Shown in pieces: positions 33,309-39,666 of a DNA stretch of 64,000 bases (positions are counted from its first letter, which is position 1; every line of letters begins with the position of its first letter). The DNA is taken from contig NZ_NCQY01000002.1 in NCBI RefSeq assembly GCF_002894645.1, positions 274,901-338,900 on the forward strand, in the 5' to 3' direction. Origin of the DNA: Salinibacter altiplanensis (GTDB lineage: Bacteria > Bacteroidota > Rhodothermia > Rhodothermales > Salinibacteraceae). Both the position numbers and the translations under genes were made by a program. The notes under the pieces were generated by a model. It was given only the letters and a program-made list of their open reading frames with translations, ran no database searches and was not told where the DNA came from.

Positions 33309-34337
33309 GTGTCCTCTGATTCCCTTCGTGTCCTACAGTACGGCCTCGGGCCCATCGGGCAGGAGGTTGCCCGGACTGTTCTCAAGAAAGAGCCGTTCAC
33401 CCTGGTTGGAGCCGTGGACATCGATCCGGACAAGGTGGGACGGGAGGTCACCGAGCTGATCGATGGAGATCTCTCGCCCACCGGCGTTCACGTGTCGGAC
33501 GACGCCGAAGCAGCGTTGGCCAATGGTTCGCCCGACGTTGTGCTTCACACGACCACCTCCTTCCTGGAGGGCGTGACGGAGCAACTGATGCAGTGCGCCC
33601 GGGCCGGGGCCCACGTCGTGTCCTCCACCGAAGAACTCTCCTTTCCGTATCACCAGTCGTCCGACGTGGCCGATCAGCTCGATCACGTTGCCCGAGAGCA
33701 CGGAGTTTCGCTCGTTGGCACGGGAGTGAATCCCGGGTACGCCATGGACACGGTGCCCCTCATGGCGACGGCGGGGTGTACCGACGTCTGGGCCGTGCGG
33801 GCGGAGCGGGTCGTTGACGCGGGCAAGCGGCGCGCGCCACTGCAGGCGAAGGTGGGGGCCGGATTGTCGCCCCGGGCGTTCGAGACGAAAAAGGCCGGGG
33901 GAACCTTCGGGCACATCGGTCTTCGCGAGTCCCTGCGGATGGTGGCGGACGGGCTCGGATGGTCGCTGGATGGTGTTGAAGAGATGCTTGAGCCGGTCCA
34001 TGCCGACGCGCCGGTTGACACAGGGGTTCGGCAGGTGGCGGCCGGCGAGGTGGCAGGCATTCACCATACCGCCGTGGGGCAGGTCGGTGGCGAGTCGCGG
34101 CTGACCCTTGACCTCAAGATGTTCGTCGGGGCCGATCCGTCCTACGACGCCGTGACGGTGGACGGAGAGCCGCCCATCGACCTACAGTTCCGTGGGGGCA
34201 TCTTTGGAGACACCGCCACCGTAGGCATGCTGGCAAACACGGCCCCGCTGGTCGCCGATGCTGCGCCCGGGCTGCACACCATGACCGACCTGCCCGTCCC
34301 TCGCGCGTTTGCGACGAGCCCCGCGGCGAGTGCCTGA
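33309..34337 (+). CDS. DapB-fold NAD(P)-dependent oxidoreductase (diaminopentanoate dehydrogenase-like)
   Basis: A 342-residue soluble oxidoreductase. A Rossmann nucleotide-binding start (VLQYGLGPIGQEVARTVL) is followed by VGAVDIDPDKVG and PDVVLHTTTSFLEG. The central segment SLVGTGVNPGYAMDTVPL is characteristic of the dihydrodipicolinate-reductase family branch that includes 2,4-diaminopentanoate dehydrogenase. The start is GTG at 33309, in a short spacer after aspartokinase. The pairing suggests an aspartate-family or diamino-acid role, which is inference. Classical DapB is only about 270 residues, so lysine-pathway identity is not claimed. Confidence 0.72.
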   Translation: MSSDSLRVLQYGLGPIGQEVARTVLKKEPFTLVGAVDIDPDKVGREVTELIDGDLSPTGVHVSDDAEAALANGSPDVVLHTTTSFLEGVTEQLMQCARAGAHVVSSTEELSFPYHQSSDVADQLDHVAREHGVSLVGTGVNPGYAMDTVPLMATAGCTDVWAVRAERVVDAGKRRAPLQAKVGAGLSPRAFETKKAGGTFGHIGLRESLRMVADGLGWSLDGVEEMLEPVHADAPVDTGVRQVAAGEVAGIHHTAVGQVGGESRLTLDLKMFVGADPSYDAVTVDGEPPIDLQFRGGIFGDTATVGMLANTAPLVADAAPGLHTMTDLPVPRAFATSPAASA

Positions 34338-34380
34338 GAAGGGAAAGGGACGCCTACGAGTTTTTAATGTTAGACACGCG

Positions 34381-35088
34381 ATGGGTCTCGTGACCATTCT
34401 GTATCGCGATGAGTGCCTCCTCGTCGTCAATAAGCCGCCCGGACTGCTCTCCCAGCCCGACCACTCCGGGGCCCCGGACGTTGTGTCACGGGGCAAAGAG
34501 ATGCTGTCCGATGGGACGGGGGAGGCGCCGTTTCTTGGGCTGGTGCACCGGCTCGACCGGCCCGCGTCGGGCGTCATGGCACTGGCGCGATCGTCGGAGG
34601 CGGCCCGGCACCTGTCCCGTCAGTTTCGGGAGCGGGTGGTCGAAAAGCGGTACGTCGTGGTCGTGGAGGGCACGCTCAACGGAATCGGATCGTGGGTGGA
34701 CTACATCGCAAAGTCCGATCGACGGGCCCGCCTCGTCGACGCCGACCATCCTGAGGGCAAGCGGGCCGAGCTCGACTGGCAGGTGCTCGAGTCGAACAGT
34801 GCCCGAACGCTCCTGCAGGTGACGCTCCAGACGGGGCGCTCGCATCAGATTCGCCTTCAGGCCGCGAGCCGGGGACACCCGGTGGTGGGGGACGACCGGT
34901 ACGGCGCATCGGCGTCCCTCACGGACCGTGCCATCGCGCTCCACCACGTTCTCCTGCGGGCCGACCACCCCGCTCGCCCGCGTCGCAAGACCATCCGGGC
35001 GCCGCTCCCAGCGTGCTGGTCGGATGTGCTTACCGACGCGATGGACGCGGCCATCCACCGGATGCTCGACCGCGAGCAGCCGTCCTAA
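34381..35088 (+). CDS. RluA-family RNA pseudouridine synthase
   Basis: Isomerises uridine to pseudouridine in rRNA or tRNA. It has 235 residues from the ATG at 34381 (MGLVTILYRDECLLVVNKP). The catalytic motif HRLDRPASGVM (about residues 57-67) contains the essential Asp. KRYVVVVEG, TGRSHQIRLQ and GHPVVGDDRYGA complete the catalytic domain. There is no N-terminal S4 domain, as in RluA/TruC-type enzymes. The target base cannot be assigned. It lies between the reductase and the heme gene hemF. Confidence 0.9.
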   Translation: MGLVTILYRDECLLVVNKPPGLLSQPDHSGAPDVVSRGKEMLSDGTGEAPFLGLVHRLDRPASGVMALARSSEAARHLSRQFRERVVEKRYVVVVEGTLNGIGSWVDYIAKSDRRARLVDADHPEGKRAELDWQVLESNSARTLLQVTLQTGRSHQIRLQAASRGHPVVGDDRYGASASLTDRAIALHHVLLRADHPARPRRKTIRAPLPACWSDVLTDAMDAAIHRMLDREQPS

Positions 35089-35184: not shown

Positions 35185-36168
35185 ATGGGCGATGATTTTG
35201 ACCGTCTCGAAACCCTTCGTGAGGACCCGCGCGATGACCTTCCAATGGCGCACCGCATGAAGCGGTTCGTGGAGGCCCTGCAGCTTCGGATTACGCGGGC
35301 GCTCGACGACCTCGACCCGGGGACCTCATTCGAGGTGGATCGTTGGTCGCGGGAGGAAGGGGGAGGCGGCATCACGGCGGTGATTGAGGGGGGCGATGTG
35401 TTTGAAAAGGGAGGCGTAAATACCTCTGCGGTCCACGGCGCGCTGCCGGACCGGATGGCCCAAGAGTTCGGCGTCGAGGAGGCGCCGTTCTACGCGACGG
35501 GCCTCTCTCTGGTGGTGCATCCCCGCTCCCCGTACGTCCCTACCGTCCACGCCAATTTCCGCTATTTCGCCCTGGGCGACGACCTCATGGACCCGGTGGA
35601 CCAGTGGTTTGGCGGCGGGGCCGACCTTACCCCGTACTACCCTCGACTCGACGACACTCAGCACTTTCATCGGGTCTGGAAGGACGTGTGCGACCGTCAC
35701 GAGGTGGCCGACTACGCCGCCTTTAAGGACAAATGCGACGACTATTTTTACCTGGATCACCGAGACGAGGCGCGCGGTGTGGGCGGCATCTTCTACGACT
35801 ACCTTCGCGAGGACCCGGAGGGGCTGTTTTTCTTCACGCGGGAGGCCGGCCGGGCCTTTCTCGAGTCGTACCTCCCAATCGTGAAGCGCCGCCGGAACGA
35901 GTCCTACGGGACGCGGGAGAAAGCGCATCAGCGCATCCGTCGGGGGCGGTATGTGGAGTTTAACCTGGTGTACGATCGAGGCACCAAATTTGGGCTGGAG
36001 TCCGACGGCCGCACGGAGAGCATTCTCATGAGCATGCCGCCACAGGTGCAGTGGCCGTACGACCACACGCCGGAGCCAGGCACGCCGGAGGCGGACGCGC
36101 AGTGGTACTTTGCGGCCCGGGATTGGCTGTCTGTGACGGAGGCCGAGGCCCCAGACAGCACCACGTGA
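35185..36168 (+). CDS. hemF: Oxygen-dependent coproporphyrinogen III oxidase
   Basis: Converts coproporphyrinogen III to protoporphyrinogen IX using O2, a late cytosolic heme step. It has 327 residues. Family blocks are GGGGITAVIEGGDVFEKGG, VHPRSPYVPTVHANFRYF, WFGGGADLTPYY (about residues 146-157), GVGGIFYDYL and RRGRYVEFNLVYDRGTKFGL. The start is ATG at 35185, 96 bases after the pseudouridine synthase. It opens a heme cluster with hemH and hemL. Confidence 0.96.
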   Translation: MGDDFDRLETLREDPRDDLPMAHRMKRFVEALQLRITRALDDLDPGTSFEVDRWSREEGGGGITAVIEGGDVFEKGGVNTSAVHGALPDRMAQEFGVEEAPFYATGLSLVVHPRSPYVPTVHANFRYFALGDDLMDPVDQWFGGGADLTPYYPRLDDTQHFHRVWKDVCDRHEVADYAAFKDKCDDYFYLDHRDEARGVGGIFYDYLREDPEGLFFFTREAGRAFLESYLPIVKRRRNESYGTREKAHQRIRRGRYVEFNLVYDRGTKFGLESDGRTESILMSMPPQVQWPYDHTPEPGTPEADAQWYFAARDWLSVTEAEAPDSTT

Positions 36169-36297
36169 AGGCCCTGCTGAGAAGGCGTTTTAGGGCGAAT
36201 TTCAACGCGGTTTAGGAACGGCACGGAAGGGCTAGCGCTCAATCTACCGCTGGTGTCACGCGTTCAAATTCGGCTTCTGAGTGTACGCTCGGTCCGT

Positions 36298-37641
36298 ATG
36301 ACTCCCCTCGACATTCTTCATGCCCACGAGCCCGGTCAGTGGACGCGTCCCGAGGATTGTGTTTCTCAGACCCCTCTTCCGATTGAGGAGGGAGATCGAG
36401 TTGGCGTAGTGTTGTTCAACCTGGGTGGGCCATCGGCCCTGGACGAGGTTGAGCCGTTTCTGTACCGCCTGCTGATGGACCCACTGCTTCTCGACGTACC
36501 GGTCGGGGGACGGATGCGTCAGTGGCTGTCGGCATCGATGGCCTACGTCCGAGCCGGGTCTTTGCGCAAACGCTACGAGCTCATCGGTGGCGACTCCCCC
36601 GTGCCCCGGCTGGCCCAGGAGCAGGCCGCAGTGCTTCAGCGTCACCTCCACGCCCGCTACGGGGGGGCGACCGGCGTGGACTTTCGCACGTACCCGGCGA
36701 TGCGCTACGGACGCCCGTTTCCGGAGACGGTTGCGGCCGACATGGAGGAGGATGAGATTGACAAGGTCATCCTGGTGCCGTCGTATCCGCAGTACTCGGC
36801 TGCCACGACAGGGTCGGCCCTCGCATACTGGAAGGCCTTGGAGGCGGAGGAAGAGCGTCCGCCCTGGCCGACGACCGTCGTGCCCGAGTACGCTGCCAAT
36901 CCGAAGTTTGTACAGGCGCTCTCGGAGCGAATCGACGAAGCCCTGCAACGCTTCCCGCGGCATGAGCGGGACGACGTTGCACTCGTTTTTAGCGCGCATA
37001 ATGCGGTCTTCAGTGCCCAGAGGCGGCCCGAGCCCCCCTACTGCTGCCACGTGCACTCGACCGTGGAGCAGGTGATGCGGCACCGGGAACAGCACCGTCC
37101 CTTCCGGACGGCCTTCCAAAGCGTAATTGGGCCGAGTCACTGGCCCACTCCCTCTCCCTCGGATGCCATCACTGCGCTCGCGGATCGGGGGCATCGCGCG
37201 GTCCTGGTCGTCCCGATTACCTTCGTCACCGATCACGTCAACGTCCGCTACGACCTTGATGTGCGGGTGCGCGAGATGGCGGAGGCAGGCGGAATTGATC
37301 ATTTCGAGGTGACGGCCGGGCTGAATACCCATCCACTGTTGATCGAGGCCCTTGGGGAGGCCACTGTGTCTCAGCTGGACCTGCCCGTCGATGTCAACCA
37401 GCTCCGCCACGAGGGCGACGGACACTCCGGGGCCTATCCGCTCCGGCCCCTCCAGCAGCTTCCCCGGCATAAAGTGACCCACGACGCGGCCTGTCCGTCC
37501 TGTGGACGGCAGGGGGGCGCGCGCCGATGGACGGGTCCGGACCGTTCGACCCAGCCGGAGCCGTCCACCGATCGACCCGCGTCGCCCCCCGACGACCGCT
37601 CGAGCCCCGCCGCGGAATCGCGGCCGAAGGAAGACTCGTAG
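36298..37641 (+). CDS. hemH: Ferrochelatase-family protein with altered active site and CxxC tail
   Basis: Ferrochelatase family; members insert Fe2+ into protoporphyrin IX or coproporphyrin III. It has 447 residues from the ATG at 36298; a GTG at 36253 is the alternative. The core runs to about residue 365, with VGVVLFNLGGPSALDEVEPFL, FRTYPAMRYGRPF and the catalytic-His strand VFSAHNAVFS. The usual SAHxxP proline is absent. Where the family has a conserved Glu after Asp-His (Glu264 in Bacillus subtilis HemH), this protein reads TDHVNVRYDLD, with Asn. A Pro/Ser/Arg-rich tail of about 80 residues contains CPSC. Position between hemF and hemL supports a heme role; normal activity is not assured. 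Confidence 0.85.
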   Translation: MTPLDILHAHEPGQWTRPEDCVSQTPLPIEEGDRVGVVLFNLGGPSALDEVEPFLYRLLMDPLLLDVPVGGRMRQWLSASMAYVRAGSLRKRYELIGGDSPVPRLAQEQAAVLQRHLHARYGGATGVDFRTYPAMRYGRPFPETVAADMEEDEIDKVILVPSYPQYSAATTGSALAYWKALEAEEERPPWPTTVVPEYAANPKFVQALSERIDEALQRFPRHERDDVALVFSAHNAVFSAQRRPEPPYCCHVHSTVEQVMRHREQHRPFRTAFQSVIGPSHWPTPSPSDAITALADRGHRAVLVVPITFVTDHVNVRYDLDVRVREMAEAGGIDHFEVTAGLNTHPLLIEALGEATVSQLDLPVDVNQLRHEGDGHSGAYPLRPLQQLPRHKVTHDAACPSCGRQGGARRWTGPDRSTQPEPSTDRPASPPDDRSSPAAESRPKEDS

Positions 37642-37695
37642 GGAGTGTCTTCGGGGCGGTCCCGCATGCTTTCTGCATTTACCTCATCGCCGACG

Positions 37696-38268
37696 ATGAG
37701 TCTTTCTCTGTCCGATCAGCTATTGCGTACCCTGGCGGCCGTTCCCGTCTCCAGTCCCGTCCTGGACCTGGGATGCGGGGCGGGAGACCACACCGGAGCC
37801 CTGCTGCGCCTCGGGTTTCCCGTCCACGCCTGCGACCCCCGGCCGGAAGCGGTTGAGGATACGCAGGCCGTCGTCCGCGATCTGGTCGACGAGGAGACCG
37901 CGGAGACGTGTGTCCAGCAACTCTCCCTACAGGGGCTCGACGAACTGGAGGCGACCTTTGACTGGGTCATTGCCGACCGGACGGAGGCCCTGGTCGATTC
38001 GCCGGCCGACCTTGCAACTCTCCTCAACAAGAGCCAGAGCCTGCTGGCGCCCGGTGGGTGGGTGTACCTCACCGTTCCGGCGACCACGGACGCCCCTGGC
38101 AAGGCGCCCCACGACGACACTGTAACTCGTTTCGCACCGGCGGACCTCGACACCGATGCTTTGAATATAGCACTGGTGGAGTCCCAGTCGCCCTCGCGCG
38201 TCGAAGAGAACGGAGAGGCTCGGGTCCATGCCCTTTACCGACATGTGAAACGGCCGACGCCCGAATGA
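37696..38268 (+). CDS. Class I SAM-dependent methyltransferase
   Basis: A 190-residue protein whose SAM-binding motif I is VLDLGCGAGDHTGALL (about residues 20-35). An acidic motif II region (VHACDPRPEAVED) and a post-motif strand (FDWVIADRTEAL, then LLAPGGWVYLTVP) follow. It resembles small methyltransferases that act on metabolites or tellurite/thiol compounds; the substrate is unknown. The ATG at 37696 is used; 37666 would add ten residues. Its position inside the heme cluster, between hemH and hemL, makes a tetrapyrrole-linked role worth testing. Confidence 0.75.
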   Translation: MSLSLSDQLLRTLAAVPVSSPVLDLGCGAGDHTGALLRLGFPVHACDPRPEAVEDTQAVVRDLVDEETAETCVQQLSLQGLDELEATFDWVIADRTEALVDSPADLATLLNKSQSLLAPGGWVYLTVPATTDAPGKAPHDDTVTRFAPADLDTDALNIALVESQSPSRVEENGEARVHALYRHVKRPTPE

Positions 38269-38349
38269 CGGCCCCCGAGACGCCGTGCCTTGAGCCCGCA
38301 AAGGCTTCCCCCTGCTCGTCACTGCCTGACCGATCGCGCCACTGATCCC

Positions 38350-39666
38350 ATGGAAGTTGCCCCCTCCGATGTTGACCTGCGGAACAGCCGGCGGTTTTAC
38401 GAGCGTGCCCAGCACTCCATCCCGGGCGGCGTAAACTCTCCCGCCCGTGCCTTTGACAGCGTAGGGGGGACCCCGCTTTTCATCGAACAAGCCAAGGGCG
38501 CGTACCTGGAGGATGCCGACGCGAATGAGTATCTCGACTACGTCGGCTCCTGGGGCCCGATGATCTTTGGGCATGCCCACCCGGACGTGGTCGAGGCCGT
38601 GAAAGACCAGGCCGAAGCGTCTACCTCCTTCGGCGCCCCTACAGAGATCGAGATCGACGTGGCCGACCTGGTGTGCGACCTCGTTCCGTCCGTGGAGAAG
38701 GTGCGGATGGTGAACTCGGGCACCGAGGCGACCATGAGCGCTGCCCGGCTGGCCCGAGGGTACACGGACCGCGACAAGATCATCAAGTTTGAGGGCAACT
38801 ACCACGGCCACGGCGACTTCTTCCTCATCTCCGCCGGGAGCGGGGCCATGACCCTCGGAAAGCCCGACTCGCCCGGCGTGACCGACGGCAACGCAAAAGA
38901 CACGCTCCTGGCCCAGTACAACGATCTGGACCACGTCCAGCGGCTCGTGGACGCCAATCAGGGAGAGGTTGCCTGCATCATCGTGGAGCCGATTGCTGGC
39001 AACATGGGCTGCATTCCGCCGGAGCCCGGCTTCCTGGAGGGGCTGCGGAAGCTGTGTGATGCCCACGACATCGTGCTCGTCTTTGACGAGGTGATGACGG
39101 GCTTTCGGGTGGCGCCGGGCGGGGCCCAGGAGCGCTTCGGCGTGATTCCGGACCTGACCTGCCTGGGCAAAATTATCGGCGGGGGGCTGCCGGTGGGGGC
39201 GTACGGTGGGAAGGAGGAGATCATGGACTACGTTGCGCCCACGGGGCCGGTCTACCAGGCCGGCACCCTCAGCGGCAACCCGCTCGCGATGCGGGCAGGG
39301 CACGCCATCCTCTCCAAGATTGCCGCGGAGAAGGACCGCATCTATGACCAGCTGGAGAACTACGCGGAGGCGCTGCAGGAGGGCACGGAGCACAACCTCG
39401 ACGCGCTGGGGGTGGACTATACGACGCACCAGGTGGGGGCGATGGGCAGCCTCTTTTTCACGGACACGGAGGTCGTGGACCAGGACACGGCCCAGACTGC
39501 GGACACGGAGGCCTACGCCGCCTACTTCCACGCCATGCTGGAGGAGGGCATCTACCTCCCCCCGTCTCAGTTTGAAGCAATGTTCTACGGCACCTGCCAC
39601 GGCGAAGAGGAGCTCGAGACGACCCTGCAGACCCAGCGTCGTGCCCTGAAGCGAGTCCACTCGTAG
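38350..39666 (+). CDS. hemL: Glutamate-1-semialdehyde 2,1-aminomutase
   Basis: PLP enzyme making 5-aminolevulinate in the C5 pathway of tetrapyrrole synthesis. It has 438 residues from the ATG at 38350. Visible motifs are PGGVNSPARAF, MVNSGTEATMSAARLARG, FEGNYHGHGDFFL, VFDEVMTGFRVAPGGAQ and LGKIIGGGLPVGAYGG, whose Lys (about residue 274) forms the Schiff base with PLP. The end FYGTCHGEEELETTL is unremarkable. It is the third heme gene in the cluster; an MFS transporter gene follows after 36 bases. Confidence 0.96.
   Translation: MEVAPSDVDLRNSRRFYERAQHSIPGGVNSPARAFDSVGGTPLFIEQAKGAYLEDADANEYLDYVGSWGPMIFGHAHPDVVEAVKDQAEASTSFGAPTEIEIDVADLVCDLVPSVEKVRMVNSGTEATMSAARLARGYTDRDKIIKFEGNYHGHGDFFLISAGSGAMTLGKPDSPGVTDGNAKDTLLAQYNDLDHVQRLVDANQGEVACIIVEPIAGNMGCIPPEPGFLEGLRKLCDAHDIVLVFDEVMTGFRVAPGGAQERFGVIPDLTCLGKIIGGGLPVGAYGGKEEIMDYVAPTGPVYQAGTLSGNPLAMRAGHAILSKIAAEKDRIYDQLENYAEALQEGTEHNLDALGVDYTTHQVGAMGSLFFTDTEVVDQDTAQTADTEAYAAYFHAMLEEGIYLPPSQFEAMFYGTCHGEEELETTLQTQRRALKRVHS

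Follow-up and report, generated by a model that had tools for sequence, protein, structure and literature searches.

Introduction

In human ferrochelatase (FECH), activity is abolished in E343K and in the H263 variants studied, E343K co-purifies with protoporphyrin, E343D is impaired in a step after chelation, and residues 302–314 form a metal-sensitive loop, according to extracts of PMC9133952. In Salinibacter ruber, two ferrochelatases were described in 2021, one with a C-terminal cluster motif and one without; both carry the His and, because it is present, were "assumed to be functional" (extracts of PMC8529089). The cluster motif was defined there as CX(1,11)CX(1,11)C, with only the three-Cys motif counted, and of 14 ferrochelatase sequences without the His, 11 were duplicates found alongside a functional one. 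The extracts of PMC8529089 hold no mention that we could find of the Glu of the second S. ruber ferrochelatase.

Here we describe a ferrochelatase homologue encoded in the hem locus of the salt-loving bacterium Salinibacter altiplanensis, within a stretch of 64,000 nucleotides that we call the window. An earlier note on this DNA had pointed to the apparent loss of the catalytic Glu, and we followed this lead through the genus and across the order.

The hem-locus gene encodes a ferrochelatase homologue

The gene and the features used below are as follows.

34309..35088, plus strand: RluA-like pseudouridine synthase upstream, named by sequence reading and used as position marker
35185..36168, plus strand: hemF, coproporphyrinogen oxidase (PF01218)
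36298..37641, plus strand: ferrochelatase homologue without the catalytic Glu, in the hem locus, 447 aa (PF00762 and TIGR00109)
36991..37008, plus strand: SAHNAV, residues 232-237
36997-36999, plus strand: codon of the catalytic His234
37042..37047, plus strand: Cys249-Cys250, the internal CC
37228..37260, plus strand: TDHVNVRYDLD, residues 311-321, the motif that bears the Glu in canonical copies
37240..37242, plus strand: Asn315 codon AAC, at the human Glu343 site
37492..37503, plus strand: CPSC, residues 399-402, the tail CxxC
37645..38268, plus strand: methyltransferase-like ORF downstream of the window hemH (PF13489 and related models); its true start is maybe further downstream
38350..39666, plus strand: hemL-like class III aminotransferase (PF00202); the longest ORF begins at 38290, and the hemL name comes from the earlier note and from position

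As had been noted, hemF and hemL flank the gene, with the methyltransferase-like ORF in between, before hemL. An alternative GTG start at 36253 also opens the frame; the start at 36298 is favoured because Met1 is invariant in 13 aligned rows. The protein scored 285.5 bits against PF00762 (cut-off 27) and 222.3 bits against TIGR00109 (cut-off 124.6). Its structure model reached a pLDDT of 82.4 and a pTM of 0.85, and matched human FECH with Z 39.5 (1hrk) and Z 40.1 (the E343K chain with protoporphyrin), which is a tie, and the Bacillus and Listeria enzymes with Z 32–34. Among the SirB, CbiK and CbiX chelatases the best match was SirB with Z 19.4. Thus, the window protein is a ferrochelatase by sequence and fold, which says nothing on its function. 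An identity as SirB, CbiK or CbiX, with 19.4 at best against 33–40, is unsupported. According to the model, the disordered tail is also shorter than the ~80 residues described from the sequence, since only residues ~416–446 have a pLDDT below 50.

The catalytic Glu is replaced by Asn in a whole clade

The replacement of the catalytic Glu was borne out by alignment. In a pairwise alignment with human FECH (chain 4klc, which carries E343D and F110A), Asn315 of the window protein pairs with residue 343 with no gap nearby, and the last active-site helix of the human enzyme aligns gap-free. A Glu restored by a small gap was looked for in the alignments and was absent. Asn occupies the 343 site in all seven members of the window protein's clade, and Glu occupies it in 32/32 hand-picked canonical rows used for mapping human residues (one of these rows is blank at N-terminal columns). 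Being fixed in 7/7 members, Asn315 is therefore neither a sequencing error nor a one-genome chance. The same Asn is found in genus member G066 (L041), which we take to be S. ruber DSM 13855. The His motif SAHxxP is also altered, the window protein reading SAHNAV with the catalytic His retained; this residue, His234, corresponds to human H263 and is present in 6/7 of the Asn clade.

Next to these two sites (human numbering), N75, R115, R164, Y165 and H341 are retained in all seven clade members; Y123, S130, H263, Y276, Q302, S303, W310 and F337 in six; and Y191 in five. The window protein itself retains H341, R164, Y165 and Y191. Lys304 is found in none of the seven and Pro266 in one. Site 197 is Ala or Gly in 7/7 and site 347 is Asp in 5/7; in most of the clade the acidic residues of sites 347 and 351 have changed, with Arg at the Glu351 site of the window protein. 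Among 122 columns that are near-invariant in 28 hand-picked canonical rows, the window protein retains 91 and alters 31, including the Lys304 and Pro266 sites, and all seven clade members retain 70. Because of these 31 changes, porphyrin affinity may be altered. Four columns with a single residue in 28/28 canonical rows were switched to one other residue in 7/7 clade members, namely V89L, T106A, S174A and E315N.

The CxxC tail is shared with canonical copies

The earlier note had pointed to the CPSC of the tail and listed a metal-regulated variant among its readings. The motif is present, and it is nothing out of the ordinary: a tail CxxC and an internal CC are found in canonical copies of the order as well. 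Among 109 rows, both elements occur in 78, neither in 25 and a part in 6; L049 was left out of this count, and L064, whose tail is apparently out of frame, was scored as partial. Because of the relatedness of the rows, and because both elements are missing from entire subfamilies, these co-occurrences do not represent independent events. All four Cys are present in the window protein, and the co-occurrence across the order hints that the internal CC and the tail CxxC might make up a shared four-Cys site. The three-Cys [2Fe-2S] motif CX(1,11)CX(1,11)C is absent from the window tail, which has two Cys only. Since canonical copies share the CxxC, a metal-regulated device peculiar to the window protein is unsupported, and we rejected the idea that the CxxC tail is a device found in it alone.

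A second, canonical copy is present and the hem-locus copy sits at the ancestral place

The earlier note had proposed looking for a second hemH in the genome. Such a gene was found on another contig (C19), a canonical PF00762 member with the motifs SAHGTP and TDHIETSYEL; the 16 kb around it gave no match to the hem-locus genes of the window. The genome is 99.75% complete and has HemE, HemF, HemY and ALAD while HemQ (PF06778) is absent, which fits the protoporphyrin route. A CpfC identity of the window protein is unsupported, as the genome is without HemQ and has hemF. Two PF00762 matches are present in 13/13 genomes of the genus; in G070 the hem-locus copy is a fragment that lies at the end of a contig.

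The history of g1 was read from a 49-row tree built after masking the His and Glu columns. Here g1, g2 and g4 contribute two groups: their canonical copies cluster in one clade of 8 rows (support 100/100) and their hem-locus copies in a separate clade of 13 rows (95/90), within which the fork order is unresolved. All Asn rows of this tree fall on a single branch of the hem-locus clade (6 rows, 100/100). In a 110-row tree the Asn branch has 7 rows with support of 100; this tree unites nearly all changed copies, shows long branches and was set aside for the g1 history. L033, the same gene as L001, was left out of the comparison, the fragment L050 out of the tree and counts, and L151 and L157, for being partial or having in-frame stops, out of alignment A2. 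L157 (L157:8-951) comes from a Bacteroidetes MAG (Ww261) and is a relative with stops in the frame tried; it may be a true pseudogene, or the frame may be wrong. The Glu is present in the related g1 rows L034, L035 and L045. The simplest account would be that the Asn arose once, with the second copy already present.

The changed copies occupy the place held by single canonical copies in other genera, in the order RluA-like gene, hemF, hemH, methyltransferase-like gene and hemL, of which hemF, the methyltransferase-like gene and hemL are each often present; the markers are incomplete at some loci, and many of the flanks compared spanned only 2 kb. The window copy is at the ancestral place, RluA-hemF-hemH-MT-hemL. 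The methyltransferase-like partner gene of hemH seems eroded too in f14 and f6, where its DLGCGxG is lost (DLSPDQRS, LFGECDEP; L168:2636-3163, L172:3358-3810).

The window gene is under purifying selection

We estimated w by NG86 for seven pairs of the Asn clade; dS exceeds 1 in three of them, and the estimates are rough there. The hem-locus copy showed w of 0.159–0.240 and the canonical copy of the same genomes 0.018–0.069. Among the neighbours w was 0.053–0.100 for hemF, 0.028–0.082 for hemL, 0.104–0.352 for the methyltransferase and 0.172–0.422 for RluA (four pairs available). In a simple neutral simulation without indels, run to 0.1, 0.3 and 0.6 substitutions per site, 8.7%, 0.35% and 0/2000 copies, respectively, were free of stops. 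A purely neutral relic is disfavoured by w far below 1 together with this last result. The window gene is maintained by purifying selection, with weaker constraint than on the working enzyme, and there is room for slow decay.

Hem-locus copies tend to erode where the enzyme is spare

To describe the order-wide pattern we used 81 of 114 genomes, those with a readable hem-locus copy, assigned their classes by hand and called a copy intact when His and Glu were both present; the genomes are related, so the counts are not independent. Where the hem-locus copy is the sole ferrochelatase and HemE is present, 28/29 copies are intact. The one changed copy, in G055, has lost the His and no second copy was found in this genome, which is 83% complete; its congener G054 has one. 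Where a second ferrochelatase is present, 7 copies are intact and 23 changed, and where HemE is missing or matched only by a weak, divergent URO-D hit, 1 is intact and 21 are changed (some calls of missing HemE are maybe assembly gaps, as G059 is 62% complete and G050, which has HemQ, 81%). Taken together, 8/52 dispensable copies are intact. Among the copies left intact despite redundancy are those of three genus members that are more distant and have a second copy, as well as one from f4 and two from f12. At least six separate losses of His or Glu are seen in the 49-row tree (the Asn clade, L043, L037, L047/L048, L087 and L102). Thus, the active site of the hem-locus copy tends to erode where the enzyme becomes spare, yet the protein often persists.

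The second copies are of several types: the g1/g2/g4 copy, a SAHSLP-type accompanied by HemQ (f3, f4, f12), which we read as CpfC-like, and a HEQSETL-type, also with HemQ (G030, G078-G080, G091). The HEQSETL-type (L080, L082, L085, L088, L103) always occurs together with HemQ in these five genomes, a pairing that looks uncommon. Two single cases fit the erosion pattern: in G030 (L087) the Glu has become Gly, with a second ferrochelatase and HemQ present, and in G032 (L102) the His has become Gln and HemE was not found.

Changed copies persist in genomes that appear to lack heme synthesis

We selected 23 genomes for the lack of a proper HemE, three of which have a weak URO-D match. ALAD was found in 0/23 of them and in 4/4 comparison genomes. 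COX1 is present in all 23, and a CtaA match in 22, 21 of these above the cut-off. From their gene content, these genomes look like respiring heme auxotrophs. A near full-length, changed HemH-like ORF is present in 18 of the 23 and a piece of one in G045; none was found in G023, G024, G043 and G044. Longer matches to a 20-row profile cross a stop in some genomes (e.g. G001, G003, G016, G087, G089, G099), whereas the core matches are stop-free, and the stops presumably lie near the ends. In 14/20 loci (L159-L167, L172-L175, L178), the HemH-like gene has in its vicinity an ABC transporter ATPase or permease resembling the one at L164.

Selection on changed copies was also estimated in other groups. 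For g40, w was 0.041–0.077 in three pairs with dS of 1.5–1.8, which is near saturation, and for g48 it was 0.092 in one pair with dS of 0.63; wider pairs gave 0.24–0.31. In f13, 22 residues that differ from the canonical majority are invariant in 13/13 copies (L104-L107 and L159-L167), all from genomes without HemE; the newly fixed residues include Pro42, Pro136, Val274, Asp308, Glu312, Gln313 and Asp315 (window numbering). Three g38 copies, L081, L083 and L086, share f13-type residues at the sites compared, with 26 hand-picked canonical rows as reference, and have w of 0.052–0.062. As their genomes make heme, with HemE, HemQ and a second ferrochelatase, the apparent rebuilding of the pocket region is not tied to auxotrophy. 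The f13/g38 pattern looks unlike decay and suggests that the scaffold has a job other than heme making.

Discussion

The window protein would be the original hem-locus ferrochelatase of its lineage. A second, canonical HemH in the ancestor of g1, g2 and g4 would have made the hem-locus copy spare, and this spare copy would then have lost its catalytic Glu in the clade of the window protein. That the Glu was lost, yet the protein is preserved by selection, suggests the holding of porphyrin or heme and not its synthesis. We therefore propose a pseudo-ferrochelatase that would bind protoporphyrin IX or heme in a largely intact pocket, would neither complete nor release the product of iron insertion, and would be kept because such holding is useful, for example in porphyrin buffering or in handing heme over to a partner. 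We regard this reading, the holding of porphyrin or heme without turnover, as the likeliest of those considered and as evenly poised between right and wrong. The retained catalytic His speaks against it, as do the 31 altered near-invariant columns and the eight dispensable copies that are still intact, and the weaker selection also fits slow loss. A CobN-type chelatase (PF02514) was found in 0/27 genomes searched (the window genome and 26 others, apparent heme auxotrophs included), which neither supports nor refutes this reading. The earlier note had suggested a changed mechanism or substrate: the Glu loss and the altered His motif are real and clade-fixed, and they are best read as a changed role; a special metal-regulated CxxC tail is unsupported. 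Another metal or substrate may be involved.

The same residues could also belong to a chelatase that still works, slowly or with another metal or under another condition, with His234 abstracting the proton and Asn315 standing in for the Glu in the network of hydrogen bonds. Both His234 and H341 are in place, as are most pocket residues, and the gene is under purifying selection. Moreover, some activity may remain with Asn because human E343D still chelates and acts slowly at a later step (extracts of PMC9133952). In the open-access literature searched we found no report of an active Asn orthologue. As Asn is uncharged, as most of the clade has further changes at Lys304, Pro266 and the acidic sites 347 and 351, and as a canonical copy is present in the same genome, we consider continued chelation unlikely. 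Slow decay of a relic without a job of its own, kept open by its operon position, would explain why w exceeds that of the canonical copy 3- to 5-fold or more and why His or Glu was lost in different ways in separate lines of the genus; the position inside hemF-hemL suits it as well. Such a relic would hardly be expected to keep w far below 1 and a core that, in the resident copies, has neither stop nor frameshift, nor to show one radical change, E315N, identical in 7/7; and the changed copies of g40 and g48, which are without adjacent hemF/hemL, still have w of 0.04–0.09. We thus hold decay to be quite unlikely. A regulatory partnership with the canonical HemH, e.g. as a mixed dimer, would suit the coexistence of both copies in 13/13 genus genomes (the resident copy of G070 being a contig-end fragment) and the typical state of ferrochelatases as monomers or homodimers (extracts of PMC8529089). 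The present data give no sign of pairing, and hem-locus copies also occur in genomes without another PF00762 match, so that we find this very improbable.

The pseudo-ferrochelatase reading can be widened to the order. Tentatively, and with more doubt than belief, we suggest that the hem-locus HemH scaffold of the Rhodothermales has a second job without iron insertion, for instance heme carriage or the removal of iron from heme, which would have outlived catalysis, redundancy and the loss of heme synthesis; f13 would then be a new family made from ferrochelatase. If the window protein is a pseudoenzyme that truly holds porphyrin or heme, nature would have made in it an analogue of human FECH changed at E343. 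The order would then be a repeated natural experiment in which a spare active site tends to erode while the protein often stays, even in apparent respiring heme auxotrophs, and the bacterial carriage of free porphyrin and heme would become testable in a culturable genus. The family models name the window protein a ferrochelatase, and it passes the published His-only filter. According to the extracts of PMC8529089, the two S. ruber copies and inactive duplicates elsewhere are already in print; the Glu loss and the order-wide retention appear to be new, as no report of a Glu-less ferrochelatase in Rhodothermales or of order-wide retention was found in the open-access literature searched.

The window protein resembles HemH/FECH (PF00762, TIGR00109) in family, fold, catalytic His, most pocket residues and place in the hem cluster, and differs from them by Asn at the Glu343 site, altered Pro266 and Lys304 sites and Arg at the Glu351 site. 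The motif-less second S. ruber ferrochelatase (PMC8529089) is probably its orthologue, given the same Asn in genus member G066. Human FECH E343K, E343D and E343Q (PDB 2hre, 4kla, 4klr) are changed at the same residue, and E343K holds protoporphyrin; these variants are laboratory-made and none has Asn, whereas the window protein is a natural paralogue. The pseudoferrochelatase of Caenorhabditis elegans is likewise a ferrochelatase homologue predicted to be inactive. It is without the His (extracts of PMC9133952), which the window protein retains, and C. elegans is without heme synthesis, whereas the window genome has it.
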